Source: Dyadobacter sp. 50-39
Lineage (GTDB): Bacteria > Bacteroidota > Bacteroidia > Cytophagales > Spirosomataceae
Direction: 5' to 3'
NCBI GenBank assembly: GCA_001898145.1
Contig: MKSR01000040.1
Coordinates: 310,001 to 374,000 of the forward strand
DNA: 64,000 bases
The translations under genes and the position numbers were made by a program. This document shows positions 8,789-59,076 of this stretch, in pieces. Numbering within the stretch: the stretch's first letter is position 1; each line of letters opens with the position of its first letter. The notes under the pieces are model-generated. The model was not told where the DNA came from. It saw only the letters and a list, made by a program, of their open reading frames with translations, and ran no database searches.

Positions 8789-9300
8789 TGAATTTCAAAT
8801 CAAACCGCCTTTTCAGGAATATTGCCATTCTCGTGGTCCTGATCGCCAACATCGGCTGCGACCAGATCTCTAAAAGCGTGGTACGGGAGAATGTGGGCTT
8901 TTACCAGACGATTCACGTGATCAAAGATTACGTGACTATCACCTATGTCGAAAACACGGGTGCATTCCTCAGCATTGGCAGCTCATTGCCGGAAACGGCT
9001 AAAATCTTCCTATTGTCCGTCATTCCGCTTATTGCATTGCTTTTTGGCATTATTTATCTGCTTACCAAAAAGAACCTGACCTGGCTGAGCGCGCTGGCGC
9101 TGTCCTTCGCCATTGGCGGCGGTATCGGTAATATTTACGATCGCCTGGTGCACGGTTCGGTAACCGACTTCATGCACATCAATTTCGGCCTATTCCAAAC
9201 CGGGATATTCAATATGGCCGACGTCTCGATCATGACCGGGATGTTTATCTTTCTGTACCAGTCGTACAGCCGGCAAAAGGCACGGTTTCCGGGAATTTGA
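8788..9300 (+). CDS. lspA: Lipoprotein signal peptidase (signal peptidase II)
   Basis: 170 aa integral membrane protein with four hydrophobic segments. The catalytic aspartates sit in the two family signatures: GNIYDRLVHGSVTDF and FNMADVSIMTG. The YVENTGAFLSIG stretch is the third conserved box. The enzyme cleaves diacylglyceryl-prolipoproteins before the lipid-modified Cys; the TPR protein at 26.3 kb is a possible client. It is translationally coupled to the DUF1080 gene. A long bidirectional terminator follows. Confidence 0.95.
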   Translation: MNFKSNRLFRNIAILVVLIANIGCDQISKSVVRENVGFYQTIHVIKDYVTITYVENTGAFLSIGSSLPETAKIFLLSVIPLIALLFGIIYLLTKKNLTWLSALALSFAIGGGIGNIYDRLVHGSVTDFMHINFGLFQTGIFNMADVSIMTGMFIFLYQSYSRQKARFPGI

Positions 9301-9336
9301 GGTGATGCTAAAACGAAAGATCAAATACCCCTTCCT

Positions 9337-9387
9337 TCAAATGCAAAAATGACTCCTGAGGAATTCAGGAGCCATTTTTGCATTTGA
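9337..9387. terminator. Bidirectional intrinsic terminator, lspA / acn
   Basis: A 23-bp stem with a single mismatch: TCAAATGCAAAAATG plus CTCCTGA (9337-9359) pairs with TCAGGAG plus CATTTTTGCATTTGA (9365-9387) over a 5-nt loop. Each arm carries an A/T run, so it can end transcripts from lspA on the plus strand and from the aconitase genes on the minus strand. Confidence 0.85.
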
Positions 9388-9401
9388 AATAACAGTACTG
9401 C

Positions 9402-11678: not shown

Positions 11679-11725
11679 ATTAATGATTACACATTTACAC
11701 TTATCAACAACTGTACCACCAGCGA

Positions 11726-14497: not shown

Positions 14498-14824
14498 GAT
14501 GAAATCTTTTCAATGTTAAAGGCAATATCTGTTGTCAATAAAACGGGCGAAAGTACGAAATTACAGAATATACGGAGGCATTCAGGCCGATTTTCGCTAC
14601 TATTTAAAACCAGTATATTCTAATCGTACATTAAGATAACCTCCACAAATTTTTTTTTGTTCTGGCAACCTGTGTATTCAGCGGATAATTTAAAAAGTCC
14701 CCTTCGGGAGGCTCAGCGGCACGCTCCGTTTTTCGCCCAGCTTTTATTTGTGCTTTGATTTTTTCTCGGATTGTACCCTATATTTGGACATTCAAAGTGC
14801 TACCAGGTCCTTAAATCCAAAGTT
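14498..14824. other. Divergent acnB/topA intergenic region
   Basis: No gene is supported here. The left part must hold the acnB leader and promoter; TACTTTCG on the minus strand near 14550 is one mismatch from the Bacteroidota -7 box but has no clear partner. A poly-T run lies near 14650. A short GC-rich stretch (about 14698-14732) with CCCTTCGGG and GGAG/CTCC pairing followed by TTTTT could be a weak hairpin. The topA promoter occupies the right end. Confidence 0.5.
14754..14786 (+). promoter_or_regulatory. topA promoter, Bacteroidota sigma type
   Basis: TTTG at 14754-14757, a 21-nt spacer, and TATATTTG at 14779-14786 match the Bacteroidota consensus TTTG-N(about 20)-TAnnTTTG exactly. Transcription would begin near 14793, leaving a leader of about 30 nt. 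This also argues for the ATG at 14825 over an in-frame TTG at 14771, which lies inside the promoter. Confidence 0.65.
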
Positions 14825-46054: not shown

Positions 46055-47368
46055 ATGCAGTATAACCGGGAACAGATCCTACAACTTGCCCCTGATGATG
46101 CCTCGGCCAAAGCCGGCCAGCAACTGGCCGCCCGCTCCAAATGGGTGGCGCTCGCAGAAAACCCCAAAGCGCTGTGGGGCGACTGCCAGGGCAGCGGCAA
46201 GACTCCTTACAGAACCATCGTCGACCTGGCGAATATCGCATTTAAATGCACTTGCCCCAGCCGGAAATTCCCCTGTAAGCACGGGCTGGGGCTTTTGCTG
46301 CTTCATATACAGGACAGGCAGGCATTTGAACCGAAATCCGAACTGCCTCCGCACGTGGCCGAATGGCTCGGGAAGCGGGAAGTCCGGGAAGTGGCGAAAG
46401 AACAAAAAGCTGCCGAAAAACAACCCGACGATTTCGCAAAAGCCAGGCGTGCGGAAGCACGGGAACGGAAAGTCGAGGGCGGTATCGAAGAGCTGCGGGC
46501 CTGGCTCCGCGACATTGTTCGCACTGGCCTCATGCACATTCCCCAGCAGGCCTACCAGTTCAATACCAACATTACGGCGCGCATGGTGGATGCCCAGGCA
46601 GGCGGACTCGCGGCGCAACTAAGGCAGATCAACCAGCTCAACTTCTTCGAGGACGGCTGGCAAAAACCCCTGCTCAAACGGCTCTCCGGCTTGTACATGC
46701 TCACCGAAGCCTACCTGCGCCGGGAAACATTGCCGGTGGAATTGCAGCAGGAAATCCGTACGCTCGTCGGCTGGACTACTTCCCGTGAAGAAGTTTTACA
46801 AAGTACCGGTGTGAGCGACCACTGGGTCGTGCTGTCGGTGACCAGCTCCGAGGATAGTAACCTCACCACCGAACGGATCTGGCTTTACGGCAGGAATTCG
46901 GAGCGTTTTGCGTTGCTGCTCAATTTCTACGCAGGCGGTCAGGTATCTCAGCACATGCTTTTTCCGGGCATGCATTTGCAGGCCGAGCTCGCATTTTATC
47001 CGGGCGTCAGCCCCGTCAGGGCGCTTGTCAGGCAGCAGCAGGCTCTTCCTCCCAAAGCGATCAACATCAACACAACTAGTTCATTAACAAATATTTACAT
47101 CAACATAACCCTGGCGCTCGCGGTGAATGCATTCACCGACCAAATTCCTTTTGTCCTCAACGAAGCAAGGCTGGTGGTGAGGGATGACCAATGGTTTCTG
47201 GCCGATGCGGAAGGCAACGCTGCGCCGGTATCCAATGAGGAAGACGAGCGATGGACTGTGCTCGCATTCAGCATGGGCCAGCCGTTTTCGGTTTTTGGGG
47301 TTTATGAAAATGAGACATTCGGGTTGCATTATGTGTGGACGCGGTTTAAAGGACTATTTGTAAAATGA
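46055..47368 (+). CDS. SWIM zinc-finger protein, first gene of the MoxR/VWA operon
   Basis: 437 aa. The SWIM motif CxCx(n)CxH is complete: C65, C67, C74, H76 in FKCTCPSRKFPCKHGLGLLL. A charged, helical linker follows (about 105-145, REVAKEQKAAEKQPDDFAKA), then an alpha/beta C-terminal region of unknown fold. SWIM domains bind nucleic acid or protein and often recruit ATPases; here it may be the target-binding part of the complex. The TGA stop is overlapped by the ATG of the next gene (ATGATGG), indicating coupling. No clear promoter is seen in the 92-nt gap upstream. Confidence 0.85.
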   Translation: MQYNREQILQLAPDDASAKAGQQLAARSKWVALAENPKALWGDCQGSGKTPYRTIVDLANIAFKCTCPSRKFPCKHGLGLLLLHIQDRQAFEPKSELPPHVAEWLGKREVREVAKEQKAAEKQPDDFAKARRAEARERKVEGGIEELRAWLRDIVRTGLMHIPQQAYQFNTNITARMVDAQAGGLAAQLRQINQLNFFEDGWQKPLLKRLSGLYMLTEAYLRRETLPVELQQEIRTLVGWTTSREEVLQSTGVSDHWVVLSVTSSEDSNLTTERIWLYGRNSERFALLLNFYAGGQVSQHMLFPGMHLQAELAFYPGVSPVRALVRQQQALPPKAININTTSSLTNIYINITLALAVNAFTDQIPFVLNEARLVVRDDQWFLADAEGNAAPVSNEEDERWTVLAFSMGQPFSVFGVYENETFGLHYVWTRFKGLFVK

Positions 47369-48831
47369 TGGAGCCGGGACTCATGAAAGCCGCATTGCTC
47401 GGCACCGACCAATACGTTCCCGATATCGGCAGTGTCGGGCCGGATATTTTTCGAAAAATCCAGGCGCTCGAAACGGGTAAGGAAGACCGGTTTTTGAAAG
47501 CAGCCTACGCCGCGCTGCGCTATCAGGAAGCTGGCGCCCGGCCCGTTGCCCTCGACTTCGCATTGCCGGAATGCCCGCCCGAAGCCCGGCCGTACGCAGG
47601 TGACAGGCTCACCGCCCTGATCCACGCCGCATTGAAGGACAAAGGCGAGGTACTCTTCCGCTACTATCTTTACCGGATAGCAAAATCGGAAAAGGTATTA
47701 CCATCCTGGCTTGTGCCTATGGTGCTCAACAAGGCATTGGAGGCGCCCAAAGACCGGGCAGATTTACTCGAAGTCTGCGGGGAAGCAGGGAAATGGCTTT
47801 GCAGCCTGAACCCGAAGTGGGCCGCGATGGCGCTACCGGATACAGAGGCCGGAAGCACCTGGGAAACAGGCACTTTGGAGCAACGCAAAGTACTTCTCAC
47901 CCATGTACGCAAAACCGACCCCGCCAGCGCTATTGCATTACTGGAAACTACATTAGCCGAAGAAAATGCAGCCAACCGGCTGATTTTTGTCCAGTTGCTG
48001 GCAGAAGGTCTTTCCATCAGCGACGAGCCGCTTTTACAAAAATTAACTACCGACAAAAGCCAGAAAGTAAAGGAAGCCGCATTGGATCTGCTGAAACAAA
48101 TCCCCGGCTCGGCCTTGAATTCCGCCTACCTGCAAGCATTGACAAACCTGCTGGAAGTGCGGGAGGAGCGGCATTTACTGGTTACTAAAAAGAAGATGCT
48201 CGGCATACGCGCCGACAGGCCGCTGGATGATGCCTTGTTCAAGACGGGGATCGATAAGGTAAGCAAAGAACGCGGTGTGGACGATCACGTGTACCAGGCA
48301 GCGCAGCTCCTTGCATTCACCGATCCGGCGCAGCTCGCGCCCAGGCTCGGCATGAGTGACCAGGAACTGATTTCAGCTTTGCTTCATTTCAAGGCGGCCG
48401 GCGTACTGGTACCATTTCTGGTGCGGTCGGCGGTGCTGTACGGCAACAAAGCATGGTCGCTCGCATTACTGCATCGGGACGAGGCTACGGACATCCGCTT
48501 GTTGGATGCATTGGAAGAAAACGAGCGTTCCGCATTCTACGGCAAGTTCCTGCAAAACAGCCTCATGACCTTGCTTACCTACCTCTTCGACGACGGCTAC
48601 ACTCCGCTGCCCGTCAAGCTGGCCGAGCAGGTGATCGACTACCTTGCGCGGTTTCCCTACAACATTACCCAGCCTGTTTACCAGCGACTTGCATTGCATT
48701 TACCTCCCGGCGCATTGACGAAACTCAAAGCAGTGATCAACGACGGACGACAGGACTACCAGGCCCGTTATTTTAAAACACAGGCATCCGAAATGGTGCG
48801 GATATCAGAACTCATTCAACAAATAGACTAA
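47365..48831 (+). CDS. DUF5691 family protein
   Basis: 488 aa, no signal peptide, almost all alpha-helical with HEAT-like character (repeated LL-rich helices such as RVLLTHVRKTDPASAIALLE-type stretches and KVKEAALDLLKQIPGSAL). I assign it to DUF5691 by its association and by the opening MEPGLMKAALLGTDQYVP. The family is found next to SWIM and MoxR/VWA genes and its function is unknown. It overlaps the SWIM gene by 4 nt and the MoxR gene by 1 nt (TAATG). It could be the scaffold linking the SWIM protein to the ATPase. Confidence 0.75.
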   Translation: MMEPGLMKAALLGTDQYVPDIGSVGPDIFRKIQALETGKEDRFLKAAYAALRYQEAGARPVALDFALPECPPEARPYAGDRLTALIHAALKDKGEVLFRYYLYRIAKSEKVLPSWLVPMVLNKALEAPKDRADLLEVCGEAGKWLCSLNPKWAAMALPDTEAGSTWETGTLEQRKVLLTHVRKTDPASAIALLETTLAEENAANRLIFVQLLAEGLSISDEPLLQKLTTDKSQKVKEAALDLLKQIPGSALNSAYLQALTNLLEVREERHLLVTKKKMLGIRADRPLDDALFKTGIDKVSKERGVDDHVYQAAQLLAFTDPAQLAPRLGMSDQELISALLHFKAAGVLVPFLVRSAVLYGNKAWSLALLHRDEATDIRLLDALEENERSAFYGKFLQNSLMTLLTYLFDDGYTPLPVKLAEQVIDYLARFPYNITQPVYQRLALHLPPGALTKLKAVINDGRQDYQARYFKTQASEMVRISELIQQID

Positions 48832-49913
48832 TGTCACAGCACATTTTACGGCAAGCGGCGGAAGAGCAGTTTGCATTCGAAATTGAAGAAATCGGCAAGC
48901 AGGACAAGCACGCAAGGCCCGAAAACTGGAAACTGTCGCCGCATGCGGTGGTCACCTACCTGATGGGCGGTACCCTCGGAAATGGCTTCGAGGTAAGCGC
49001 CAAGTACATTGGTAACCGCCGGCTGATGGAAATCGCGGTGGCTACCCTGACGACCGACCGGGCGCTGCTACTGTACGGCCTGCCGGGCACAGCCAAGTCG
49101 TGGGTATCCGAACACATTGCAGCGGCGGTGTCCGGGAATTCTGGGCTGGTAGTGCAGGGAACGGCGGGCACCAGCGAGGAAGCCGTGCGTTATGGCTGGA
49201 ACTATGCACAACTATTGTCAGCCGGACCGGTGCCGGAGGCGATCGTGGAAACACCGGTTATGCGCGGCATGAAAGAAGGAAAAATCGTTCGCATTGAGGA
49301 GCTTACGCGCATTGGATCGGATGTACAGGATAGTTTGATCACCGTTTTATCCGAAAAGATGCTCCCGATCCCCGAACTGAATACCAAAGTTGACGCCGTG
49401 CACGGCTTTAATATCATTGCCACGGCCAATAACCGTGATAAGGGTGTCAATGACCTTTCCAGCGCATTGAAGCGGCGTTTCAACACCGTAATCCTGCCTG
49501 TTCCCGCGACCATGGAAGAGGAAGTGGAGATCGTGCAGCAGCGTGTGGCGAGTTTCAGCAAGGGCATTGATCTGCCCACGGACAAACCCATACTGGAAGA
49601 AATCAACCGCATCGTGACCATTTTCCGCGAGCTACGCAATGGCGTATCTGCCGACGGCAAGACGAAGCTGAAAACACCATCCGGCACACTCAGCACGGCA
49701 GAGGCCATTTCGGTGATGAACAGCGGACTTTCACTCGCCTACCATTTCGGCGACGCCAGCCTGAAAGCCGACGACCTGGCGAGCGGCCTGATCGGTGCGG
49801 TGATCAAAGATCCGGTGCAGGACAAAATTGTCTTTCAGGAATACATGGAAACGGTTTTGAAGCAGCGCGACGGGTGGAAAGACCTGTACCGCGCCTGCCG
49901 CGACGTAATCTGA
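48831..49913 (+). CDS. MoxR-family AAA+ ATPase (YehL-like)
   Basis: 360 aa. The P-loop is GLPGTAKS (residues 83-90) in LLLYGLPGTAKSWVSEH. The Walker B region reads GKIVRIEELTRIG, with Glu where Asp is usual (hhhhDE becomes RIEE). Sensor 1 is IIATANNRDKG, and LSSALKRRFNTVILPVP carries the arginine-finger and lid entry. MoxR ATPases remodel target proteins with the help of a VWA partner, which here lies two genes downstream. Length and neighbours match E. coli YehL (about 360 aa as I recall it). The DUF5691 gene overlaps its start. Confidence 0.88.
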   Translation: MSQHILRQAAEEQFAFEIEEIGKQDKHARPENWKLSPHAVVTYLMGGTLGNGFEVSAKYIGNRRLMEIAVATLTTDRALLLYGLPGTAKSWVSEHIAAAVSGNSGLVVQGTAGTSEEAVRYGWNYAQLLSAGPVPEAIVETPVMRGMKEGKIVRIEELTRIGSDVQDSLITVLSEKMLPIPELNTKVDAVHGFNIIATANNRDKGVNDLSSALKRRFNTVILPVPATMEEEVEIVQQRVASFSKGIDLPTDKPILEEINRIVTIFRELRNGVSADGKTKLKTPSGTLSTAEAISVMNSGLSLAYHFGDASLKADDLASGLIGAVIKDPVQDKIVFQEYMETVLKQRDGWKDLYRACRDVI

Positions 49914-49944
49914 TGGTTGTTTTTTATCAAATTCCGTAATACCC

Positions 49945-52149
49945 ATGTCCGTTCATCTGCTGGGGATCAGGCACCATGGCCCGGGCTCGTCGAGGCACGT
50001 GCTGGCGGCGCTTGCATCCATTCAACCCGATATGATCCTGATCGAAGGCCCGCCGGAAGGTGAGGCGATGCTTTCGTGGGTCGCGCACGAGGATATGCAG
50101 CCACCCGTGGCCCTGCTCGCGTACGTGCCGGATAATCCCAGGCAAGCCGCGTTCTATCCGTTTACCGTGCACAGCCCCGAGTGGAATGCGATCCGCTATG
50201 GGCTGGAAAACAAAGTACCGGTCCGGTTCATCGACATGCCGCTGGGCCACAGTTTTGCACTCGACGAAGCCGGCTTTCCCGACCGCAAACCGCAACCGCA
50301 AGACGGCAGCAGCGAAGATCTGCGGCGCCACCCTATGGCCCATTTCGCTGAAATTGCCGGGTTCGACGATGAGGAAGAATGGTGGGAGCACCAGTTTGAA
50401 ACGGCGCACCAGCCGGAAGAGGTTTTCGAAGCGGTGGCGCAGGCCATGACCGCCTTGAGGCACAACCGGCCCCTTCGCCGGGACCGTAACGAAGACTTGC
50501 GCGAGGCATTCATGCGCAAATCCATCCGGATTGCACAAAAAGAACAATATCAGCGCATTACCGTGATATGCGGTGCATGGCACGTACCTGCATTGCAGGA
50601 CATGCCGAAAGCGAAAGACGACAACGCGCTGTTGAAAAACCTGCCCAAAACGAAAGTAGAAACGACATGGATACCCTGGACCAACGACCGGATGGCATTC
50701 GAAAGCGGCTACGGCGCGGGCGTGGAATCGCCGGGCTGGTACCGGCACAACTGGGAGTTTCCCGACGACCACGGTACCCGCTGGCTGTCGCATACTGCCC
50801 GCGTGTTCCGTGAGAACCGTGTAGACATTTCATCGGCGCATATCATTGAAGCTGTGCGGCTCGCGCACGCTTTGGCCGGACTGCGCATGCTGCCGCGGCC
50901 CGGTTTGAAAGAGCTCAACGAAGCCACCGTTGCGGTAATGTGCATGGGCGACGATACGCTCATGAAGCTCATCCGGCGCGAGCTGATTGTCGGAAAGGCC
51001 TTCGGGCAGGTTCCGGAAGGGACGCCGCAGGTGCCATTGCAGCGCAACCTCGACCAGCTGATCCGTAAACTCAGGTTGAAAGTCAACAATGACGTAAAGA
51101 CGCTCAAACTGGATTTGCGCGAAGAAAACGACCTGCAAAAGAGCATTCTGCTGCACCGGCTCCTGCTGCTGGGCGTCGACTGGGGCGATCCGGAAGCCGT
51201 GTCGGGAAAAGGCACATTCAAGGAGGAATGGACGCTGCGCTGGTACCCTGAGCTGACGATCAAGCTGCTGGAAAAAGCGCCCTGGGGTAATACCGTGGCA
51301 GAAGCAGCCGGTAAATACCTCGAAAACAGGGCTGCAACCTGCAACCGCCTGGACGAAATCACGCCGCTGGTACAAGCTGCCATTCCCGCTGACCTGCCGG
51401 CCTCGCTGGCCGCGACCATGCGGCGAATGGACGAGCTGGCCGCGGGCACGTCCGACATCCTGATGCTCATGAATGCATTCACGCCGCTCGCCCAGGTGAG
51501 CCGCTACGGCAATGTCCGCAATACCGACCGCGATACCATCGACCTGATCCTGCGAACGGTGTTCTACCGCATTGTCGCCGGGCTGCCGCCGAGCTGCGCG
51601 GGCATCGACGACGACCAGGCGGTAACCCTCTCGGAGAAGATCCGCGAGGTAAACCAGAATATCCTCATGCTCGAATCAATCGAGCTGAAAGACGCATGGA
51701 CGGACGCCTTGCGCGCCATCTTCGCAGCCGACCGCAGCGCGGCGCTCATCCAGGGGTACTGCTGCAAGGCACTCTACGATGCCAGATTGCTGGATATGGA
51801 TGCTATTTTCACGGCATTTGCAAGGGCATTGTCGGTGAATAACGAACCGGCCTGGTCGGCCAACTGGCTGGAAGGTTTTCTGAAAGATGCTGCCACGGTG
51901 CTGATCCTGGACGACACGATCTGGCATGTGGTGAACGAATGGGTGACGACGCTGGACGAAGAAGTGTTTTTACAGGTAGTGCCGCTTCTGAGAAGGACAT
52001 TTGCAAATTTTACCAATGTCGAAAAGAGAAAGATCGCCAGCCGTGCCAAAGAAGGCAGGTCGGTAACGAAAGGAATTCAAAAACAGGAAATCGACGAAGC
52101 CAGGGCGCAGCAGGTGCTGCCGCTGCTCGAAATGCTGATGGGACTTTGA
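49945..52149 (+). CDS. DUF5682 family protein (YehM-like), putative TIKI/TraB-type hydrolase domain
   Basis: 734 aa, cytoplasmic (no signal peptide). The N-terminal domain opens with HLLGIRHHGPGSSRHVL (GIRH at 7-10), then DMILIEGPPEG (E34), and ends with a second GxxH, GAWH at 210-213 in RITVICGAWHVPAL. A GxxH...E...GxxH arrangement is the signature of the TIKI/TraB/EreA superfamily of metal-dependent hydrolases. That link is my inference; DUF5682 itself has no known function. The remaining 500 residues are mostly helical. The VWA gene starts 2 nt after the stop. Length and position match E. coli YehM. Confidence 0.8.
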   Translation: MSVHLLGIRHHGPGSSRHVLAALASIQPDMILIEGPPEGEAMLSWVAHEDMQPPVALLAYVPDNPRQAAFYPFTVHSPEWNAIRYGLENKVPVRFIDMPLGHSFALDEAGFPDRKPQPQDGSSEDLRRHPMAHFAEIAGFDDEEEWWEHQFETAHQPEEVFEAVAQAMTALRHNRPLRRDRNEDLREAFMRKSIRIAQKEQYQRITVICGAWHVPALQDMPKAKDDNALLKNLPKTKVETTWIPWTNDRMAFESGYGAGVESPGWYRHNWEFPDDHGTRWLSHTARVFRENRVDISSAHIIEAVRLAHALAGLRMLPRPGLKELNEATVAVMCMGDDTLMKLIRRELIVGKAFGQVPEGTPQVPLQRNLDQLIRKLRLKVNNDVKTLKLDLREENDLQKSILLHRLLLLGVDWGDPEAVSGKGTFKEEWTLRWYPELTIKLLEKAPWGNTVAEAAGKYLENRAATCNRLDEITPLVQAAIPADLPASLAATMRRMDELAAGTSDILMLMNAFTPLAQVSRYGNVRNTDRDTIDLILRTVFYRIVAGLPPSCAGIDDDQAVTLSEKIREVNQNILMLESIELKDAWTDALRAIFAADRSAALIQGYCCKALYDARLLDMDAIFTAFARALSVNNEPAWSANWLEGFLKDAATVLILDDTIWHVVNEWVTTLDEEVFLQVVPLLRRTFANFTNVEKRKIASRAKEGRSVTKGIQKQEIDEARAQQVLPLLEMLMGL

Positions 52150-52151
52150 CC

Positions 52152-53282
52152 ATGGAAAACAAAAACGCGCAAAGATGGCGCCTGGTGCTCGGCAAGGAAG
52201 TGCAGGACGAGCTCGAATACACCCTCAACAAGCAGGAGAGCGGCATCGACCGTACGCTGGAAGCGCTTTACAACTCCGAGCGCAAAGGAGGCCTGGGCGC
52301 TTCCTCGCCAAATGTATCGCGCTGGCTGGGCGATATCCGGGAGTATTTCCCGGCATCGGTAGTGAAAGTGATGCAGCAGGATGCATTGAAACGCCTCAAA
52401 CTAACCTCAATGCTCACCGAACCCGAAATGCTGGAAACGATCGTTCCGGACGTGCAGCTGGTAGCGAACCTCATGACGCTCGGCAAGCTCATCCCCGAAA
52501 AAACGAAGGCGACCGCCCGACAGGTAATCGCCAAAGTGGTGGATCAACTGGTGCAAAAACTCGGCGGCCCAACGCAGCAGGCGATCACCGGCAGCCTCAA
52601 CCGCGCGGCGCGGAACATCCGCCCGAGGCATAACGAGATCAATTGGAGTGAAACCATTCGCAAAAATCTCAAACATTACCAACCTGATTACCAAACCATT
52701 ATTCCCGAAATCAAAGTCGGGTACGGACGGAAGCGCAAGGCATTGAAAGACGTCATCCTCTGCATTGACCAGAGTGGTTCCATGGGCACGTCAGTCATTT
52801 ATTCCGGCATTTTTGGATCAGTAATGGCCTCAATGCCTGCCGTACAAACGAAGATGGTCGTTTTCGACACCTCCGTAGCCGACCTGACCGAGGAACTCCG
52901 CGACCCGGTCGACCTGCTTTTCGGCGTGCAGCTGGGCGGCGGCACCGATATCCACCGGGCCCTCGCCTACTGCCAGCAGATCGTCACCCGTCCGCTCGAC
53001 ACCGTACTCGTGCTGATCAGCGATCTTTTCGAAGGCGGTAACGAGCTGGAAATGCGTAAGAAAGTGGCGCAGCTCGTCGACAGCGGTGTGCAGGTAATCA
53101 CCCTGCTCGCATTGAATGACGAGGGAGCACCTTTTTATGACCACCACAATGCAGACTTCTTCGCCAGCATGGGCATACCGGTGTTTGCCTGCACACCCGA
53201 CCTTTTCCCCGACCTTATGGCGGCTGCCCTGAGCAAACAGGACATTTCCAACTGGGCAGGTATGCACGATATCAAGCTTTGA
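52152..53282 (+). CDS. VWA-domain protein with intact MIDAS (YehP-like)
   Basis: 376 aa from ATG 52152; the frame is open further upstream but that part overlaps the DUF5682 gene. The N-terminal 195 residues are helical. The VWA domain has a complete metal-ion-dependent adhesion site: D206, S208, S210 (DQSGS), T265 in GGGTD, and D291 in LISDLFEGG. In MoxR systems the VWA protein is the adaptor that brings clients to the ATPase in a metal-dependent way. The size agrees with E. coli YehP. The end converges on the receiver-phosphatase gene with 8 nt between. Confidence 0.88.
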   Translation: MENKNAQRWRLVLGKEVQDELEYTLNKQESGIDRTLEALYNSERKGGLGASSPNVSRWLGDIREYFPASVVKVMQQDALKRLKLTSMLTEPEMLETIVPDVQLVANLMTLGKLIPEKTKATARQVIAKVVDQLVQKLGGPTQQAITGSLNRAARNIRPRHNEINWSETIRKNLKHYQPDYQTIIPEIKVGYGRKRKALKDVILCIDQSGSMGTSVIYSGIFGSVMASMPAVQTKMVVFDTSVADLTEELRDPVDLLFGVQLGGGTDIHRALAYCQQIVTRPLDTVLVLISDLFEGGNELEMRKKVAQLVDSGVQVITLLALNDEGAPFYDHHNADFFASMGIPVFACTPDLFPDLMAAALSKQDISNWAGMHDIKL

Positions 53283-53290
53283 TACCGCGG

Positions 53291-54472
53291 TCAGCTGCCC
53301 AGATACCGCAGGGAAAGCATGGTAATGTCATCGAACTGGTTGGCCGGGCCGATGAAGTCGATCAGGCTTTCCAGGGTCGCCTCGTTCATTTCGCGGGCGG
53401 TTTCCCTGGTGGAACCTTCTCCGGTACGGAAGAAATCTTCCAGGTAATGCAGGCCGTAGCGGGCTCCTGTAAGATTATTCGCATCGGTTACGCCGTCTGT
53501 ATAAAGTACAAATTTATCGCCCGGGTAGAGTTGTAGCGTGTGCGACTGGTATCTAAATGTACTGTCGAAGCAAAGCGCCATTCCACCCTGCTTTTTAACC
53601 AGCTCGGTATCCCCATTGGCGCGGATAATCAGCGGCGGCTCATGCCCGGCATCCACATATTCCACCACACCGGTTTTAACATTCATAATGCACACAAATG
53701 CGGTCACGAACATGAATGACGTATTGTCTTCACTCAAAAACTCATTCACAATACGTACTTTATCGCAAATGGTGTCGTCGTTCCGGTTTGAAAACTGACT
53801 TTTAAAAATCGCTTTGCTGATAGCCATGAACAATGCCGCCGGTACGCCCTTGTCGGACACGTCGCCGATCATGAAGAAAAGGCGCTCGGAATCCATCATG
53901 AAATAATCATACAAATCCCCTCCTACCACTTTGGCGGGATGAATGAACGCGTGAAGGTCCACCCCCGCTTTGGCGATGTTGGCGGGAACTGTTTTGGGGA
54001 GCATCGAGCTCTGGATTTCCTTTGCTACGCTCAGGTCGTTCTGGATCGCAATGAGCTGCTCACGCCCCCTTTCAAGGGTAGCCAGCATTTCAATGTGCTC
54101 CACCGTCTTGGAAATGGTGATTTCAAGGTCGTCGAAGTTCACAGGTTTTGTGACAAAGTCAAATGCACCCCGGTTCATCGCCGTCCGGATATTGTCCATA
54201 TCGCCGTAGGCCGATACCATGATCGCTTTCAGCAGCGGATTCTGCTTTTCGTTCACCTTCGAAAGCAGCGTCAGCCCGTCCATACCCGGCATGTTGATGT
54301 CGGAAAGGATCAGGGCAATATCGTCGGACTCTTCCAGCCGTTCGAGTGCTTCCACGCCGTTGTTGGCAAACACGAACTCGTACTTTTTGTCCCTGATCTG
54401 TTTTCTGAACAGCTGGGAAATGAGCATTTCCATATCCTGTTCGTCATCCACACTTAATATCTTGATAGCCAT
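53291..54472 (-). CDS. Response regulator with PP2C/SpoIIE (RsbU-like) phosphatase output
   Basis: 393 aa. The receiver domain (1-120) has D9/D10, the phospho-acceptor D58 in LSDINMPGMDG and K109 in FVTKPVN. A coiled-coil helix near 125-155 links it to a PP2C-type serine phosphatase domain (about 165-390) with GGDLYDYFMM, MIGDVSDKGVPAALFM and LYTDGVTDANN, the metal-binding Asp positions. Such proteins usually dephosphorylate anti-sigma-factor antagonists (partner switching). It is the last gene of a minus-strand operon and probably receives phosphate from the kinase encoded 37 nt upstream. Confidence 0.9.
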   Translation of the reverse strand: MAIKILSVDDEQDMEMLISQLFRKQIRDKKYEFVFANNGVEALERLEESDDIALILSDINMPGMDGLTLLSKVNEKQNPLLKAIMVSAYGDMDNIRTAMNRGAFDFVTKPVNFDDLEITISKTVEHIEMLATLERGREQLIAIQNDLSVAKEIQSSMLPKTVPANIAKAGVDLHAFIHPAKVVGGDLYDYFMMDSERLFFMIGDVSDKGVPAALFMAISKAIFKSQFSNRNDDTICDKVRIVNEFLSEDNTSFMFVTAFVCIMNVKTGVVEYVDAGHEPPLIIRANGDTELVKKQGGMALCFDSTFRYQSHTLQLYPGDKFVLYTDGVTDANNLTGARYGLHYLEDFFRTGEGSTRETAREMNEATLESLIDFIGPANQFDDITMLSLRYLGS

Positions 54473-54509
54473 TATGATAGTATTGATTGAGGTTCAGAGG
54501 TTAATATTG

Positions 54510-55340
54510 TCAGGCGGGTATTACAATGCGAAACTCGGTGCGTTCATTCGGAACGGACGTCACGCCGATGGTGCCCTTATGGGTATCCACGATACTGGCA
54601 TAGGTGAGCGAGAGCCCCAGCCCCGTGCCTTTGCCCACGGGTTTGGTCGTAAAAAACGGTTCGAAAAGCCGGGCGATGATCTCTTGCGGAATGCCGATGC
54701 CGTTGTCGGCGATAAGTATCTCCACCTCACCGCCCTCCCGCTGCGTACGGATCCCGATTGCCGGCCCGAAGCCGATGCCCTCGCGCTTTCGGCGCTCGTT
54801 GACGGCATAGCAGGCATTGTTCACCAGGTTCACCACCACTCTGCCCAGGTCGCCCTTCACTACCTGCACAATGCCCACGGCCGGGTCGAACTGGTAGTCG
54901 AACGTCACGTTGAATTCACTGTCCTCGGCGCGCACGCTGTGGTAGGCGAGCTTACTGTATTCTTCGAGCAGCTGGTTCAGGTCGGTAGGTTCCGCACCGG
55001 GGCCATCGCCGCGGGTGTGCGCGAGCATTCCCTGTACAATGCGCTCTATACGCCTGCCATTTTCATTGATTTTCAAAAGGTTGACGGCCAGCGTATCCAG
55101 CAGCTCCTTTTCAGCGGCTATATCCTCCGCGCTAAGCGCTCCGAGTTCTTTTTGTAAAATATCCCGGATCTCCTCGACAAGCCCCTGCGATAGGCGCGAG
55201 AAGTTATTGACGAAGCTCACCGGGTTTTTGATCTCATGCAAAATACCCGCACTCAACTGCCCGATCTCGGCGAGCCGGTTCAGTTCGAGGATTTTCTGTT
55301 GGTATACTTCAATACCCTTCTCGGTAATTTCTGTCCCCAT
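54510..55340 (-). CDS. Soluble sensor histidine kinase
   Basis: 276 aa with no membrane segment or sensor domain. A short N-terminal helix leads to the H-box LSAGILHEIKNPVSF with the phospho-acceptor H35. The ATPase domain has the N-box NLVNNACYAVNER, G1 IADNGIGIPQE and G2 GKGTGLGLSLTY. This is the minimal kinase form, likely taking its signal from the larger sensor protein encoded upstream in the same operon (7 nt away) and passing phosphate to the receiver-PP2C protein. Confidence 0.88.
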   Translation of the reverse strand: MGTEITEKGIEVYQQKILELNRLAEIGQLSAGILHEIKNPVSFVNNFSRLSQGLVEEIRDILQKELGALSAEDIAAEKELLDTLAVNLLKINENGRRIERIVQGMLAHTRGDGPGAEPTDLNQLLEEYSKLAYHSVRAEDSEFNVTFDYQFDPAVGIVQVVKGDLGRVVVNLVNNACYAVNERRKREGIGFGPAIGIRTQREGGEVEILIADNGIGIPQEIIARLFEPFFTTKPVGKGTGLGLSLTYASIVDTHKGTIGVTSVPNERTEFRIVIPA

Positions 55341-55347
55341 ATTCGTG

Positions 55348-58300
55348 CTATTTTGCGTTGTGAGTCAATTGGGCGGTTTGATCAGGGGCGACCGGCAGAA
55401 AAATCCCGACCTCGGTAAACTCTCCTTCCTTCGAGTCCATCTGAATGCGCCCCTTATGGTATTCGATAATGTCTTTGCTCATGTAAAGCCCCAGTCCGGT
55501 CCCTTTCGAGGTTGGTTTGGTGGTGAAGAACGGGTTGAAAAGCTGCTCGGCTTCTTTGGGCGGGATGCCTTTCCCATTATCGCGGATGCCGATGCGCACG
55601 CCTCCGGAAGCTAGGCGGCTCGATACGATCAGTTCCGGGGTAAAAGCTTTGTCCAGCTTCGCCTTCTCGATCAGGGCATAGCAGGCATTGCTGATCAGGT
55701 TCGTCAGCACCTGGGCAAACTCGTAAGGCAGCAAACTGACTTTCACCGGCCCGCTGTCCAAGGCAAATGTGAGCTTCACCGACGCCCCCTTGTATTCGTT
55801 GAGTACTTCCTGGATCGCAGAGCGGGCCTTGGATTCCAGGAATGGATTGAGCTCTGTCACGAAGAATTCGGTCGACTTCCCTTTGAGCAGCTTTTGCATG
55901 TCTTTCACAATCCGCGTGGTGCTGTTTCCGTGCTCGAAGATCTTTTCCAGGTTCTTTTGCAGCATATCCAGGCCGCTGTCCAGGTCGTCGCGCTCGTCTT
56001 CGGTCAGCACGTCCTGGTGTTTGTCGGTCACTTCGGTGATCTCTTTCAGCAACTTGCCCGACGATTGCGAGAAGTTGTTAATGTAATTCAAAGGGTTCAG
56101 GATACGGTCTACAATACCTTTTGTCAGGCTTCCCACGGATGCCAGGCGTTCCTGACGGATCAACTCTTCCTGCGCCGATTTCAGGTTAGTCAGTGTGTTT
56201 TCGAGGTTTTCGAGAATGTCGGTTTTAATGTAGGCGGCGATCAAATGCTCTTTCAGGTTTCGCACCATATTGAAATCCCGCTCGGCGAATGCGTGCTCCC
56301 TGGTCATATTTTCCATGGTAATGTAGCTTTTCACGTCCCCTTCCACGCGGATCACGATCGTGATCAGTGACTGGGGTGAGAAAATCTCGTCCACCGAATG
56401 GTCGGTTGTCTGCCTGCGGAAGGTGTTTTGTAAATAAATGTCTTCGTACACCTCCTCGGCATTCGCCACGTAGCGCTCATGGGCCTGGCTTGCCGAAAGC
56501 CGGAGGTCTTCCACATCGGCATTCGCCACCGAGCCTGATAATGCAATGAACTGGTAATTGTCCCCTGCTTTGCTGTATACCAAAGCCGAAGCACCATCTA
56601 CATTCTGAAACTGACATAACCTGTCGAGGACGAGCTGGAACAGTTTCTCTGTGTTCACTTCACTGTTGATGGCCTTCACAAATTCATCGATCCGTTCCAG
56701 CTGATCGTTGGTAGCTGCCAGTTCTTCCGATTGCTGTTCCAACTCTTCTTTCTGGTAAACTACCTCCTCGGTCCGCTCCTGAATGCGTGTTTCCAGATCG
56801 GCCTTCTCACGGATGACGGCCCTGAGCCGCCAGCGCACGGCATAGTAGATCATCACCCCGAACGCAATCGCGTACAGCGCTACCATATACCACTGCCTGA
56901 ACCACGGCGTAGCAATGGAAAATGCGAAGGATGCCTCCTGGGACACATTACCGTAAACATCCCGCGCCCTCACATGAAACACGTACCTTCCCGATGGAAG
57001 GCCGCTGTATTCCTTACGCGTCTGCGCGCCCCAGTCCGACCAGCCGGCTTCGTAATTTTCGAGCAGGTATTGGTACACCGTTTCCTGGCCGCCGAAAAAG
57101 CTGGGCAATGCATATTCGAAAGCCACCGTATTATCGCGGTAACCGAATGCAGCCCGCGCTCCCCCGACCCCGCTGCCCGGTGCGAGCGGCCTGTTTTGAA
57201 CCGATACATTCCTGAGCAGCACCGTGTGGCGGGTACTGTCGGCATACCGGCGCGTGAGGTCGAGGCGGTAGAGGCCCTGGTCGCCGCCCAGCCATGCCAC
57301 CCCGTCCTGATCCGGAAAAATAACCTGGAACGGCACTTCGGCTACGGGAGCGAAAGGCCTATCGACCAGCCGGTAACCCTGCGCCGATTTTTGAAAAAAC
57401 GAAACGGACTTTCTATCCCCGCGCGTAGTCCAGAGGTTACCTGCCGCGTCGCTTTGCACTCGGTCGAACCAGGTCTTGTCCCCGTGCAGCCACGAGGCGC
57501 GCTTAAATCGGTCATTGTCGTATTCAAACAACCCATCCTTGTTGGACACGATCAGGCGGTTGTCGTGAACCGAAAACTTGTTATAAAGCGGGCTGGAAAT
57601 GCCCTGTGCAGCTGAATAGGCCTTGATCGCCCCGGTGGCGGGCACATACCTGAGCACACCGTTGGAAAGCGTTTCGAGCCAGAACACGCCGGCAGGATAT
57701 TCGGTAGCCCCCACGATTTGCATGTCAATACCTTTCACGCGGCGCGTATTCCAGCCTGTTCCGGACTTTTCCAGCACCGCAAGGCCGTCCTGCAAGCCTA
57801 CCAGCAACATTTGCCCGGAGGCACTCGCCGTAACAGCAAGCGAAAAAGTGGCATTCAGCCGCGTCAGCCCACCGCTCCCCGACCATTGAAACAACCCTTT
57901 GCTGGAAGCCACATACAGGCTCCCATCAGCGACCGTCGCTCCCAGGCATCCTCCGTCCGATCCGGGGACGCGGACTGCACGGTTGTTTTGTATTTCAAAA
58001 AGACCATACAGCGTACCTGCAAACAATTTGCCCTGGAAACGGACTATGAAAGTGAGGGCTCCCTTGAGGCCATCCGCATGGTCGAACACGGAAACCGGTG
58101 AAGGGATGTCGAGGTGGCCGATACCGTCGTTCAATGCGAGCCAGATATTGCTGTCGCGGTCTCTAAAAACCGCGTTCACCTGTGCCTCGCGCAGTTCAGG
58201 AATAGAGACAGGGTAGCGCAAATCACCGTCCGGGCTCAGTACCACCAGGTTTCCATTACCCAATGCTACGAGCAGGTCGCCGTTTTGCATCGGGCCTGCC

Positions 58301-59076
58301 GCGCTGACTTTCCCGGCCGAAAGCACCGATCGTGCATTCCCTCCCAGGTTGCGGATGGTGTTACCGTGCAGTGCATAGGCACCCTGCCCGTTGGTGAATA
58401 ATATTGCGTTGTCCGTATCTATCGGCACCACGCCCGCCAGGTCCAGCAGGGCGGGTACATCGTCCGCAGCAGCCAGCTCTACCGGTTGCCCATTTTGGAG
58501 CATTACAATGCCCCGCGTTTTAGAATAGGCAACGATTTTATCCTGAAAAACAAATGCGGACTGGATCGAAAGATTACGCGCAACCGGCCTGACGACCTTT
58601 CCATCCCAGAAAAAATGGGTATTCTCCGTCAAAAACCAGGCGCCATTCTTCACCGGGGAAATCAGCAAAATGCCGGTTGGCCGTTGTTTCAGATTCGCCG
58701 AGAGGCTTTGAAAACGGTGGGCGCCGGTGGAGTCCGCGGCCAGGTACCCGAACTCGCCGTTGGCTCCTACCAGCACACGGCCGCGCGAATCGATGGCGAG
58801 CGCCGATACGCGTGCGACATTGTCCGTGGGTATGGTGCGCCAGCTTACCCCATCGTATTCGAGCACCCCGGCGAAGTTCGCAAAGTACATCACCCCCGAT
58901 GCGTCCTGCGTCACGGCGAAGTTCTGGTCGTGTGCGCGGTATTCGGCAGAGGAAAAGTAGCTGGACATGGGCCTGCCCATTTCCGGCATACGCGCTACTT
59001 GTCCAGTGGCGTGCAGCGCGGCCAGGCACACGGTAATCGTCAGAAATAGTAGCCGGTATACGTTCAAATTTTTCAC
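55348..59076 (-). CDS. Propeller-type membrane sensor with GAF and kinase domains, phospho-acceptor His missing
   Basis: 1242 aa. Signal peptide (1-25), periplasmic beta-propeller repeats (about 30-640), Y_Y_Y domain (about 652-720), one transmembrane segment (about 727-748, YMVALYAIAFGVMIYYAV), coiled coil (about 755-795), GAF domain (about 800-950), dimerisation helices and an ATPase domain. The H-box reads GIVDRILNPLNYINNFS where GIAHEIKNPLNF is typical, so the His is Asp (D990) and the next Glu is Arg. The ATP site (NLISNACYALIE, IRDNGKGIPPKEAE, GTGLGLYMSKD) is intact. It may signal through the intact kinase next to it. Confidence 0.88.
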   Translation of the reverse strand: MKNLNVYRLLFLTITVCLAALHATGQVARMPEMGRPMSSYFSSAEYRAHDQNFAVTQDASGVMYFANFAGVLEYDGVSWRTIPTDNVARVSALAIDSRGRVLVGANGEFGYLAADSTGAHRFQSLSANLKQRPTGILLISPVKNGAWFLTENTHFFWDGKVVRPVARNLSIQSAFVFQDKIVAYSKTRGIVMLQNGQPVELAAADDVPALLDLAGVVPIDTDNAILFTNGQGAYALHGNTIRNLGGNARSVLSAGKVSAAGPMQNGDLLVALGNGNLVVLSPDGDLRYPVSIPELREAQVNAVFRDRDSNIWLALNDGIGHLDIPSPVSVFDHADGLKGALTFIVRFQGKLFAGTLYGLFEIQNNRAVRVPGSDGGCLGATVADGSLYVASSKGLFQWSGSGGLTRLNATFSLAVTASASGQMLLVGLQDGLAVLEKSGTGWNTRRVKGIDMQIVGATEYPAGVFWLETLSNGVLRYVPATGAIKAYSAAQGISSPLYNKFSVHDNRLIVSNKDGLFEYDNDRFKRASWLHGDKTWFDRVQSDAAGNLWTTRGDRKSVSFFQKSAQGYRLVDRPFAPVAEVPFQVIFPDQDGVAWLGGDQGLYRLDLTRRYADSTRHTVLLRNVSVQNRPLAPGSGVGGARAAFGYRDNTVAFEYALPSFFGGQETVYQYLLENYEAGWSDWGAQTRKEYSGLPSGRYVFHVRARDVYGNVSQEASFAFSIATPWFRQWYMVALYAIAFGVMIYYAVRWRLRAVIREKADLETRIQERTEEVVYQKEELEQQSEELAATNDQLERIDEFVKAINSEVNTEKLFQLVLDRLCQFQNVDGASALVYSKAGDNYQFIALSGSVANADVEDLRLSASQAHERYVANAEEVYEDIYLQNTFRRQTTDHSVDEIFSPQSLITIVIRVEGDVKSYITMENMTREHAFAERDFNMVRNLKEHLIAAYIKTDILENLENTLTNLKSAQEELIRQERLASVGSLTKGIVDRILNPLNYINNFSQSSGKLLKEITEVTDKHQDVLTEDERDDLDSGLDMLQKNLEKIFEHGNSTTRIVKDMQKLLKGKSTEFFVTELNPFLESKARSAIQEVLNEYKGASVKLTFALDSGPVKVSLLPYEFAQVLTNLISNACYALIEKAKLDKAFTPELIVSSRLASGGVRIGIRDNGKGIPPKEAEQLFNPFFTTKPTSKGTGLGLYMSKDIIEYHKGRIQMDSKEGEFTEVGIFLPVAPDQTAQLTHNAK

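Follow-up and report, generated by a model that had tools for sequence, protein, structure and literature searches.

A widely conserved five-gene MoxR-VWA operon in Dyadobacter and its DUF5682 protein with a predicted TraB/ChaN-like domain

Organization of the locus

The window analyzed here is a stretch of 64,000 nucleotides from Dyadobacter sp. 50-39 (contig MKSR01000040.1, positions 310,001 to 374,000). Between positions 46055 and 53282, we observed five open reading frames on one strand (+), encoding in order a SWIM protein, a DUF5691 protein, a MoxR AAA+ ATPase, a DUF5682 protein and a CoxE-type VWA protein.

46055..47368, + strand: SWIM zinc-finger protein, 437 aa (ORF; Pfam SWIM, 2.1e-4)
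47365..48831, + strand: DUF5691 protein, 488 aa (Pfam DUF5691, 2.8e-80)
48831..49913, + strand: MoxR-type AAA+ ATPase, 360 aa (Pfam AAA_5, 9.6e-34)
49945..52149, + strand: DUF5682 protein, 734 aa (Pfam DUF5682, 1.5e-255)
52152..53282, + strand: CoxE-type VWA protein, 376 aa with 52152 taken as start codon (the mechanical ORF extends upstream to 51939; Pfam VWA_CoxE, 2.3e-47)

Successive genes overlap by 4 and 1 nt or are separated by gaps of 31 and 2 nt. A first-pass annotation had described this layout from the letters alone, and it was confirmed in full: all ORFs are open, the overlaps and gaps are exact and the Pfam families were recovered, with a SWIM score of 21.2 bits against a cut-off of 19.6. 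The SWIM zinc motif, the MoxR P-loop and the complete MIDAS named in that annotation are likewise present across the aligned relatives.

46247..46282, + strand: SWIM zinc motif, residues 65-76 (C65, C67, C74 and H76 in 71/71 aligned sequences; the CxC...CxH pattern is invariant)
49077..49100, + strand: MoxR Walker A, GLPGTAKS, residues 83-90 (K89 in 78/78)
49296..49301, + strand: MoxR acidic pair E156-E157, assigned as Walker B (both in 78/78)
52767..52781, + strand: VWA MIDAS, DQSGS, residues 206-210 (D206, S208 and S210 in 77/77)
52944 and 53022, + strand: VWA T265 and D291, which complete the MIDAS (each in 77/77)

Walker A reads GxPGTAKS in 73 of 79 MoxR matches, GxPGTAKT in 3 and GLPGTGKS in 2, the last one having no match. 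By sequence, the operon thus encodes a MoxR protein whose Walker A is intact and whose Walker B is acidic and, alongside it, a VWA protein with a MIDAS, as expected for the chaperone pairing that the annotation had proposed. The pairs NorQ-NorD, CoxD-CoxE and RavA-ViaA similarly combine a MoxR AAA+ protein with an intact-MIDAS VWA protein from closely placed genes, but the operon of the window has three further constant partners. When MoxR was compared with solved proteins using phmmer, NorQ matched at 5.6e-5 over residues 52-274, while the lowest E value, 2.1e-10, was that of midasin, aligned over 67 residues only.

Conservation and distribution of the operon

The annotation had taken the genes for one coordinated unit and had named rare adjacency elsewhere as the observation that would speak against this. 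In a search of genome contigs adjacency was common: all five genes stood in the order of the window at 64 of the 80 related loci kept, and 8 of the other 16 reach a contig end. The set is kept together across distant phyla. The five-gene operon is a real, widely conserved unit.

Co-occurrence across genomes, which the annotation had suggested counting for all five genes, was counted for DUF5682 and DUF5691. DUF5682 was present in 7 of 296 Bacteroidota genomes, all 7 of which contained DUF5691 at E 0.001 (over its cut-off in 6). The two genes lay on different contigs in 2 of the 7, and one further genome had a weak DUF5691 match without DUF5682. Within the genus, 9 of 37 genomes carry the operon. 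DUF5682 was seen with no other operon gene in reach at two loci (L065 and L098), without MoxR at three (L075, L087 and L095) and alone at 4 of 25 further loci (L216, L220, L221 and L222).

Median pairwise identity over 68 loci was 74.3% for MoxR, 67.3% for VWA, 48% for DUF5682, 40% for SWIM and 25.4% for DUF5691, the fastest-changing member. A HEAT-like solenoid is suspected for the DUF5691 protein, with a HEAT_2 match of only 0.0096, below the cut-off of that family. Two loci from among 5 Streptomyces records were inspected, and in both of them DUF5682 and VWA form one polypeptide. SWIM and DUF5691 form one in Hymenobacter sp. HDW8, although the latter fusion is clouded by possible sequencing errors, since a near-identical relative has SWIM and DUF5691 split and DUF5682 broken in three. 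These fusions suggest DUF5682 with VWA and SWIM with DUF5691 as partner pairs.

A second layout in E. coli

The parallel drawn earlier with E. coli yehL, yehM and yehP held, as these genes encode homologues of MoxR, DUF5682 and VWA with 36%, 27% and 33% identity to the proteins of the window, respectively. Directly after yehP, yehQ encodes a SWIM protein, and yehL-yehM-yehP-yehQ thus lie in one stretch. For SWIM only the domain is common: no similarity between YehQ and the SWIM protein of the window was found outside the zinc motif, and a profile of the window SWIM type did not find the SWIM proteins of E. coli-type loci. WGR/DUF4132 proteins precede the stretch in E. coli, where yehF, yehH and yehI belong to the locus. 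The arrangement MoxR-DUF5682-(DUF4132)-VWA-SWIM was found in E. coli, Iodobacter, Agrobacterium and Sinorhizobium. It differs from that of the window in having SWIM last and DUF4132 genes in place of DUF5691. A control search did not find DUF5691 in E. coli. Since the window has DUF5691 and its genome has no DUF4132 match, we regard its operon as a sister layout of yehLMPQ rather than the same one. The yehL-yehM-yehP stretch matched 5288 of 5426 complete E. coli genomes (about 97%), and 5297 of its 5299 occurrences were chromosomal.

The names DUF5682 and DUF5691 were absent from the open-access papers searched, and we found no functional study of the operon in them; within that literature, the earlier statement that no role has been published stands.

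Predicted fold and invariant residues of DUF5682

The annotation had supposed that DUF5682 may cleave or modify something and had proposed structure searches. AlphaFold2 modelled the protein with a pLDDT of 86.5 overall and 89.6 for the N-domain. In a blind search of 350,542 chains, Foldseek placed TraB family proteins at ranks 1-3 (best E 5.3e-3, probability 0.97, TM-score 0.37) and ChaN at rank 4 (E 0.16) for the N-domain; no match reached E 0.001. With the whole-length model, the 50 matches listed were all helical, mostly repeat proteins. On this modelling we propose, as a new assignment, that DUF5682 probably joins an N-terminal TraB/ChaN-like domain (about residues 1-270) to a C-terminal helical part.

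Sequence comparison gave fainter signals. DUF5682-TraB was the best of 21 profile pairs in hhalign, but weak (score 25.3, probability 4.2%), and DUF5682-VWA and ChaN-VWA reached 21-22. TraB-ChaN scored only 0.4% in the same test, which is therefore a weak one. A PDB sequence search with DUF5682 profiles gave nothing below E 0.06. The N-domain contains invariant residues, each present in 85/85 aligned sequences and in 10/10 diverse ones.

49972..49974, + strand: His10, first putative active-site His
50044..50046, + strand: Glu34, putative partner of His10
50179..50181, + strand: Glu79, candidate second Glu
50581..50583, + strand: His213, second putative active-site His

E187, equally invariant (85/85 and 10/10), is the other candidate for the second Glu. 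DUF5682 thus has the GxxH-E-GxxH pattern of the TIKI/TraB/ChaN superfamily, and both His and at least two Glu residues never vary; G7 is replaced by P in two of the 10 diverse members. DUF5682 resembles this superfamily in its top fold matches and these residues, and differs from it in having no significant sequence match and a long C-terminal helical part. A 2His/2Glu set is described as catalytic and common to the TIKI family in PMC6254334. A model-based fold match and invariant His and Glu residues now stand behind the putative hydrolytic role.

A proposed remodeller of a TraB-like hydrolase

Our preferred reading, held tentatively and at somewhat less than even confidence, is that the operon builds a MoxR-VWA remodeller that specifically serves a TraB-like hydrolase and is aimed by SWIM and DUF5691. 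MoxR would form the usual AAA+ ring, and ATP hydrolysis would pull or twist VWA. The MIDAS of VWA would hold DUF5682 and so open, load or otherwise switch on the TIKI/TraB-like hydrolase. Recognition and delivery of the target would fall to SWIM and to DUF5691, which changes fast and is replaced by DUF4132 in loci of the E. coli type. Published parallels are NorQD, a MoxR-VWA pair that remodels for metal insertion (PMC13036017), and a jumbo-phage MoxR-VWA pair whose VWA is fused to a metallopeptidase (PMC7824862).

Alternative readings

MoxR-VWA might instead remodel damaged ribosomes, tRNA or repair complexes for RNA healing and sealing, with SWIM (or WGR) binding RNA and DUF5682 trimming or releasing bound protein or ester; we consider this unlikely. 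At locus L059, one strand carries RtcB, a PrfH-like gene, SWIM, DUF5691, MoxR, DUF5682, VWA, an RNA ligase and an HD/kinase gene. Pnkp and two RlaP genes lie upstream of the operon at L018, two RlaP and RtcB beside it at L032, and RtcB beside it at L043 and L048. RNA-repair genes thus adjoin 5 of 88 DUF5682 loci and none of 38 control windows from Bacteroidota genomes, which were fixed rather than randomly drawn and came from a single phylum. However, this is not significant alone (one-sided Fisher, p 0.16; p 0.25 for 5/121), and the association is a post hoc observation rather than a prediction. No such genes were seen at 25 further DUF5682 loci, in the window or in 14 extra stretches from the genus, 8 of them with the operon. 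The midasin match, to a ribosome-assembly AAA+ protein, fits this reading, short as its alignment is. In E. coli, yehF, also known as molR1, and yehI lie at 47.3-47.4 min by coordinate. A table in PMC4245954 places molR at 47.3 min, and the paper reports a synthetic interaction between a molR1 deletion and the loss of LepA, a translation factor. A more specific version, which we hold to be distinctly improbable, has a midasin-like machine strip or cleave protein or ester off damaged ribonucleoprotein through a VWA-mounted TraB-fold hydrolase, freeing RtcB, Pnkp or other RNA-repair enzymes, with DUF5691 and DUF4132 as interchangeable damage sensors.

We would not expect, either, a NorQD/CoxDE-like machine in which MoxR-VWA inserts metal into a client and a ChaN-like DUF5682 is the metal or haem carrier or the client. 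The window VWA does belong to VWA_CoxE, and ChaN, at Foldseek rank 4, is a haem binder. In E. coli, the yeh locus lies next to genes formerly named molR, which a 1990 study reportedly linked to molybdate use. Both PMC13036017 and PMC7159879 present MoxR-VWA pairs as machines that insert metals. Against this, MoxR is only distantly like NorQ, and no metalloenzyme family was common in the 121 flanking proteins among the first 25 of 160 families listed. According to PMC6254334, one or more enzymes of the TIKI family need no metal, and a TIKI-type fold therefore does not imply metal loading.

DUF5682 could also be a non-catalytic scaffold with a borrowed fold, the machine only assembling another complex. 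The fold superfamily has members without the 2His/2Glu site, as PMC6254334 states, but the invariance of H10, E34, E79, E187 and H213 makes this quite unlikely.

Least probable, and in our view very much so, is a ternary-type MoxR-vWA conflict system, with DUF5691 and SWIM as sensors of an invader and DUF5682 as effector. Its presence is patchy in the genus and phylum, one subunit (DUF5691) changes fast, and matches occur in 36 plasmid records, some chromosome-sized. The P-loop GxxxTAKS is as described for two conflict classes, including MoxR-vWA-beta-propeller ternary systems, in PMC7159879, and three genomes encode a beta-propeller MoxR system at a distance of 6-11 kb from the operon. However, the window VWA (376 aa, match ending at residue 352) has no propeller family, and the window MoxR gave borderline scores of 26.8 and 27.1 bits against bpMoxR (cut-off 27), below those of further MoxR proteins encoded in its genome, which reached up to 55.2. 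bpX1 and DUF5682 never shared a genome among 296 Bacteroidota. DUF5682 is constant, not swapped. PADLOC gave no strong match for any of the five proteins (best 3e-5, to IetA, MoxR residues 67-100), and each of 25 PADLOC families listed of 53 occurred in 1/121 flanking proteins. With the E. coli version near-universal and chromosomal, the phage phenotype suggested by the annotation finds little support.

Significance

A version of the operon occurs in laboratory K-12 and matches roughly 97% of complete E. coli genomes, yet the papers searched yielded no study of its function. The likely hydrolase-type fold of DUF5682 with its named residues, the likely pairings and the possible RNA-repair context make a testable machine of what had been uncharacterized domains. 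If the preferred reading of a remodeller dedicated to a TraB-like hydrolase is true, control of a dedicated hydrolase would join metal insertion and complex assembly among the tasks of MoxR-VWA chaperones.

Conservation of the five-gene unit

We confirmed the five ORFs, and their overlaps (4 and 1 nt) and gaps (31 and 2 nt) are those that the first-pass annotation had claimed:

46055 to 53282, + strand: operon of five genes, in the order SWIM, DUF5691, MoxR, DUF5682 and VWA (CoxE-type)

A Pfam search of the five proteins, which that annotation had proposed, matched SWIM (E 2.1e-4, a match that exceeds the curated cut-off), DUF5691 (2.8e-80), AAA_5 (9.6e-34), DUF5682 (1.5e-255) and VWA_CoxE (2.3e-47), and an NCBIfam scan gave no match over any cut-off for any of them. 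A HEAT-like nature of DUF5691 is no more than suspected, its HEAT_2 match being only 0.0096, below the cut-off. When solved proteins were searched with phmmer, MoxR matched midasin (2.1e-10 when scored on that protein's complete, long chain, with only 67 residues aligned) and NorQ (5.6e-5, residues 52 to 274), and the VWA protein had no match among PDB sequences. Promoter and terminator prediction gave nothing useful when compared with shuffled sequence (1 vs 3.7 promoter-like sites, 12 vs 9.0 terminator-like sites).

The reading of the genes as one unit depended on their being adjacent elsewhere, and this was upheld. At least 574 relatives were found on genome contigs (at least 591 stretches), and among the best 80, which we retained, the SWIM-DUF5691-MoxR-DUF5682-VWA order was complete in 64. 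Eight of the other 16 loci reach a contig end (L063, L064, L072, L079, L096, L100, L104, L105), and in eight members are absent or lost within contig reach (L037, L065, L075, L086, L087, L092, L095, L098). By record title most of the 80 loci are from Bacteroidota; the rest include cyanobacteria, proteobacteria, acidobacteria, planctomycetes and Ktedonosporobacter. In a sample of 296 Bacteroidota genomes, DUF5682 was present in 7, and all five genes stood together in 4 of these 7, the window included. DUF5691 was found at E 0.001 in 8 of the 296, namely all 7 DUF5682 genomes and genome G014; it was over the cut-off in 6 and below it in G162 and G014. DUF5682 and DUF5691 lay on different contigs in two of the 7 genomes (G037, G178), and in G162 the only members seen were DUF5682, MoxR and a weakly matching DUF5691. 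In cyanobacteria, the phylum of genome G305, DUF5682 was over the cut-off in 8/146 genomes. Within 25 further loci from plasmids, one phage record and other genomes, DUF5682 was alone within its stretch in 4 (L216, L220, L221, L222). Loci L156 and L157, whose contigs are as long as those of L026 and L027, are probably the same records as these.

In the 68 loci, the window included, in which all five proteins are full-length, median pairwise identity was 74.3% for MoxR, 67.3% for VWA, 47.7% for DUF5682, 40.0% for SWIM and 25.4% for DUF5691. Column counts left out sequences shorter than 85% of the median length or with E above 1e-20, which kept 85/88 DUF5682, 78/79 MoxR, 77/78 VWA, 74/78 DUF5691 and all 71 SWIM sequences. 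Invariant residues were C65, C67, C74 and H76 in SWIM (71/71), K89, E156, E157, R215 and R216 in MoxR (78/78), and D206, S208, S210, T265 and D291 in VWA (77/77).

Two side observations were made among these loci. An unverified faecal phage scaffold, which may be bacterial DNA, carries MoxR-DUF5682-VWA (L215, phage record MT835988), and in six loci (L038, L039, L041, L044, L069, L074) VWA is followed directly, on the opposite strand, by a gene for a shared protein some 1550 residues long.

A sister layout of the E. coli yeh genes

The E. coli K-12 order is yehF (WGR), yehH (pseudogene), yehI (DUF4132), yehK, yehL (MoxR), yehM (DUF5682), yehP (VWA) and yehQ (SWIM), and compared with yehLMPQ the window operon is a sister layout. 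BLASTP identity between the window and E. coli proteins was 36% for MoxR, 27% for DUF5682 and 33% for VWA; neither BLASTP nor a window-type SWIM profile matched the window SWIM protein to YehQ. The yehL-yehM-yehP stretch was found in 5288/5426 E. coli genomes, the match covering 80% or more of the stretch in 5165, and its places were chromosomal in 5297 of 5299. On one IncF plasmid of E. coli (NZ_CP103756, L170) we observed yehI, yehL-type genes, btsSR and mlrA between two IS26 copies, with a CTX-M-15 gene just beyond the IS26-flanked segment.

The E. coli-type layout with DUF4132 also occurs on plasmids of Iodobacter, Agrobacterium and Sinorhizobium, where the DUF5691 profile had no match, and in Streptomyces, where the SWIM match is weak and VWA is fused. 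The window-type layout is carried by plasmids of Deinococcus, Rhizobium and Methylosinus, the VWA frame of the last being broken. DUF4132 formed the commonest neighbour cluster of the main set, with 13 loci (E. coli and 12 from Bacteroidota); the cluster was identified by Pfam for two members and by BLAST to YehI for 10 of the 12 Bacteroidota members. The gene lies directly after VWA in 11 loci and between DUF5682 and VWA in L066. No genome of the 296-genome Bacteroidota sample had both DUF4132 and DUF5682. DUF5691 and DUF4132 thus appear to be partners that either replace or supplement each other. In Deinococcus radiodurans, depletion of the DNA-damage repressor DdrO is described, in a passage of PMC8533742, as strongly raising the expression of a WGR gene and a DUF4132 operon; both families are neighbours of the E. 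coli-type layout.

DUF5682, a probable relative of the TIKI/TraB superfamily

An AlphaFold2 model of whole DUF5682 (30 sequences, pLDDT 86.5) had an N-terminal alpha/beta domain followed mainly by helices. Since the 50 matches listed in a structure search with the whole model were all helical, mostly repeat, proteins, the N-terminal domain was modelled separately (275 residues, 65 sequences, pLDDT 89.6). None of 350,542 solved chains passed E 0.001 against this domain. The first three ranks were held by one Tetrahymena complex IV subunit, called "TraB family protein" in the PDB (top match E 5.3e-3, prob 0.97, TM-score 0.37), and rank 4 by ChaN (E 0.16). TraB and ChaN are held to be one superfamily. 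A figure legend in PMC10060162 lists a TraB-family subunit.

In profile comparison, DUF5682-TraB scored 25.3, the best of 21 pairs (prob 4.2%), beside 16.8 for TraB-ChaN and up to 22.1 for unrelated pairs, values too weak to decide the kinship of DUF5682. In local alignments of DUF5682 with TraB and with ChaN, the second GxxH-like stretches of the families coincide in both. PDB sequence searches with DUF5682 profiles gave nothing useful. G7, I8, R9, H10, H11, E34, E79, D97, R186, E187, G210 and H213 were invariant in 85/85 DUF5682 sequences; when the window was aligned with nine divergent members, drawn from four further phyla and a phage-derived scaffold, the residues kept were R9, H10, E34, E79, D97, R186, E187, G210 and H213, and G7 and H11 were not kept. 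A passage of PMC6254334 on a TIKI-family crystal structure describes a catalytic 2His/2Glu set common to the family, that enzyme being metal-independent. In our judgement DUF5682 is quite probably TIKI/TraB-like, and we lean towards its predicted role being catalytic.

An accessory operon within the genus

DUF5682 was found in 9/37 genus members searched. The window operon is flanked by a glycogen-synthase gene and a response-regulator/SpoIIE gene, and these two are 13 to 965 bp apart in 17 of the 18 genus relatives having both; in genome G487 they are 7,991 bp apart, with other genes between, one encoding an RHS/toxin-33 protein. DUF5682 was absent from all 16 of these 18 relatives in which it was searched (all except G510 and G511). 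The operon is therefore accessory in the genus, and it is near-universal in E. coli. In 5/8 other carriers its neighbour is the acetyltransferase-like gene that the window has one gene upstream of the operon; in 3/8 the operon is elsewhere. A simple mobile insertion was not upheld: the two flanking genes are close together in 17/18 relatives, but the left neighbour is common to 5/8 carriers, so gain and loss are not distinguishable.

In L147, a genus relative, the operon interval (8526 to 16086) is filled by roughly 8 kb of other genes, one of them for an RHS protein that has a toxin-33 domain, and it may be an insertion hotspot. Next to the window operon we also observed the following:

53291 to 59076, convergent with the operon: response regulator with a SpoIIE domain, histidine kinase and 1242-residue sensor-like protein

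Neighbouring systems and alternative roles

RNA-repair genes adjoin the operon in 5 of 88 DUF5682 loci (L001, the window, and L017 to L105 minus L020, L023 and L025).

RNA-repair genes beside the operon
L018: upstream, Pnkp (PNKP_ligase 6.4e-179) and two RlaP (Pfam run singly)
L032: two RlaP-like genes and RtcB (RtcB by BLAST with E. coli RtcB; RlaP by two RlaP family-scan members and likeness to L018)
L043: RtcB (BLAST with E. coli RtcB)
L048: RtcB (BLAST with E. coli RtcB)
L059: RtcB, PrfH-like RF-1 protein, operon, RNA ligase and HD/kinase protein, on a single strand (Pfam run singly)

The family scan found two RtcB and two RlaP proteins among 121 flanking proteins (23 of 144 were left out). 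No RNA-repair genes were seen in 38 control windows (L171 to L208, fixed Bacteroidota stretches), in 25 further DUF5682 loci, or in 14 genus stretches and the window; the one-sided Fisher p was 0.16 (5/88 vs 0/38), or 0.25 with the further loci added. RtcR-like sigma-54 activators in L018 and L094 were not counted, because the RtcR-like family is broad. RNA-repair systems were reportedly surveyed in 2016. An RNA-repair context of the operon is not established; it is worth pursuing because of the tight single-strand layout in L059 and L018. A WYL-domain regulator recurs in the RtcB-holding L032, L043 and L048, with a PhyH-like domain added in L032.

Membership in the beta-propeller ternary systems was rejected, as the VWA protein is without a propeller and the bpX1 and DUF5682 genome sets are disjoint in the 296-genome sample. 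Compared with these MoxR-vWA-beta-propeller systems, the window MoxR lies at the border of the bpMoxR cut-off of 27 bits (it scored 26.8 and 27.1), and a P-loop variant is common to both. Three genomes (L046, L050 and L059 with flanks) have such a system (bpMoxR 337 to 344 bits) at a distance of 6 to 11 kb, and in L051 a bpX1 protein is encoded immediately upstream of the operon. Phage defence finds little support in the weak matches of a PADLOC scan of the operon (the best, IetA at 3e-5, over the P-loop region of MoxR), the near-universal chromosomal version in E. coli and a PADLOC scan of the flanking proteins.

The words DUF5682 and DUF5691 occurred in no paper of the open-access library searched; an earlier description elsewhere is possible, most subscription papers lying outside this scope. 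Among the matches listed for the yeh names in that literature, titles were mainly those of E. coli/Shigella genome papers and strings of other fields. The main text of an eLife 2020 paper was without words starting SWIM, yeh, TIKI, DUF4132, WGR or MolR. A 2002 SWIM-domain paper is one possible place of an earlier description of the system.

Two candidate sub-assemblies

In two Streptomyces loci, DUF5682 (residues 35 to 998) and VWA_CoxE (1027 to 1248) form one 1257-residue protein. In Hymenobacter sp. HDW8, SWIM and DUF5691 form one 1009-residue protein, in which Pfam identified DUF5691, and the zinc motif together with our own profile identified SWIM. In H. radiodurans, SWIM and DUF5691 are separate, overlapping genes, and DUF5682 is in three pieces, so sequence errors are possible in that record. 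These fusions point to DUF5682-VWA and SWIM-DUF5691 as two sub-assemblies. A near parallel, in a passage of PMC7824862, is a jumbo-phage MoxR-VWA pair in which VWA is fused to a metallopeptidase. Compared with MoxR-VWA chaperone pairs, the window operon has the features that can be tested, and it would work in the same manner. By this analogy, the role of the MoxR-VWA pair would be to open, load or position DUF5682, and SWIM and DUF5691 would bring the target.
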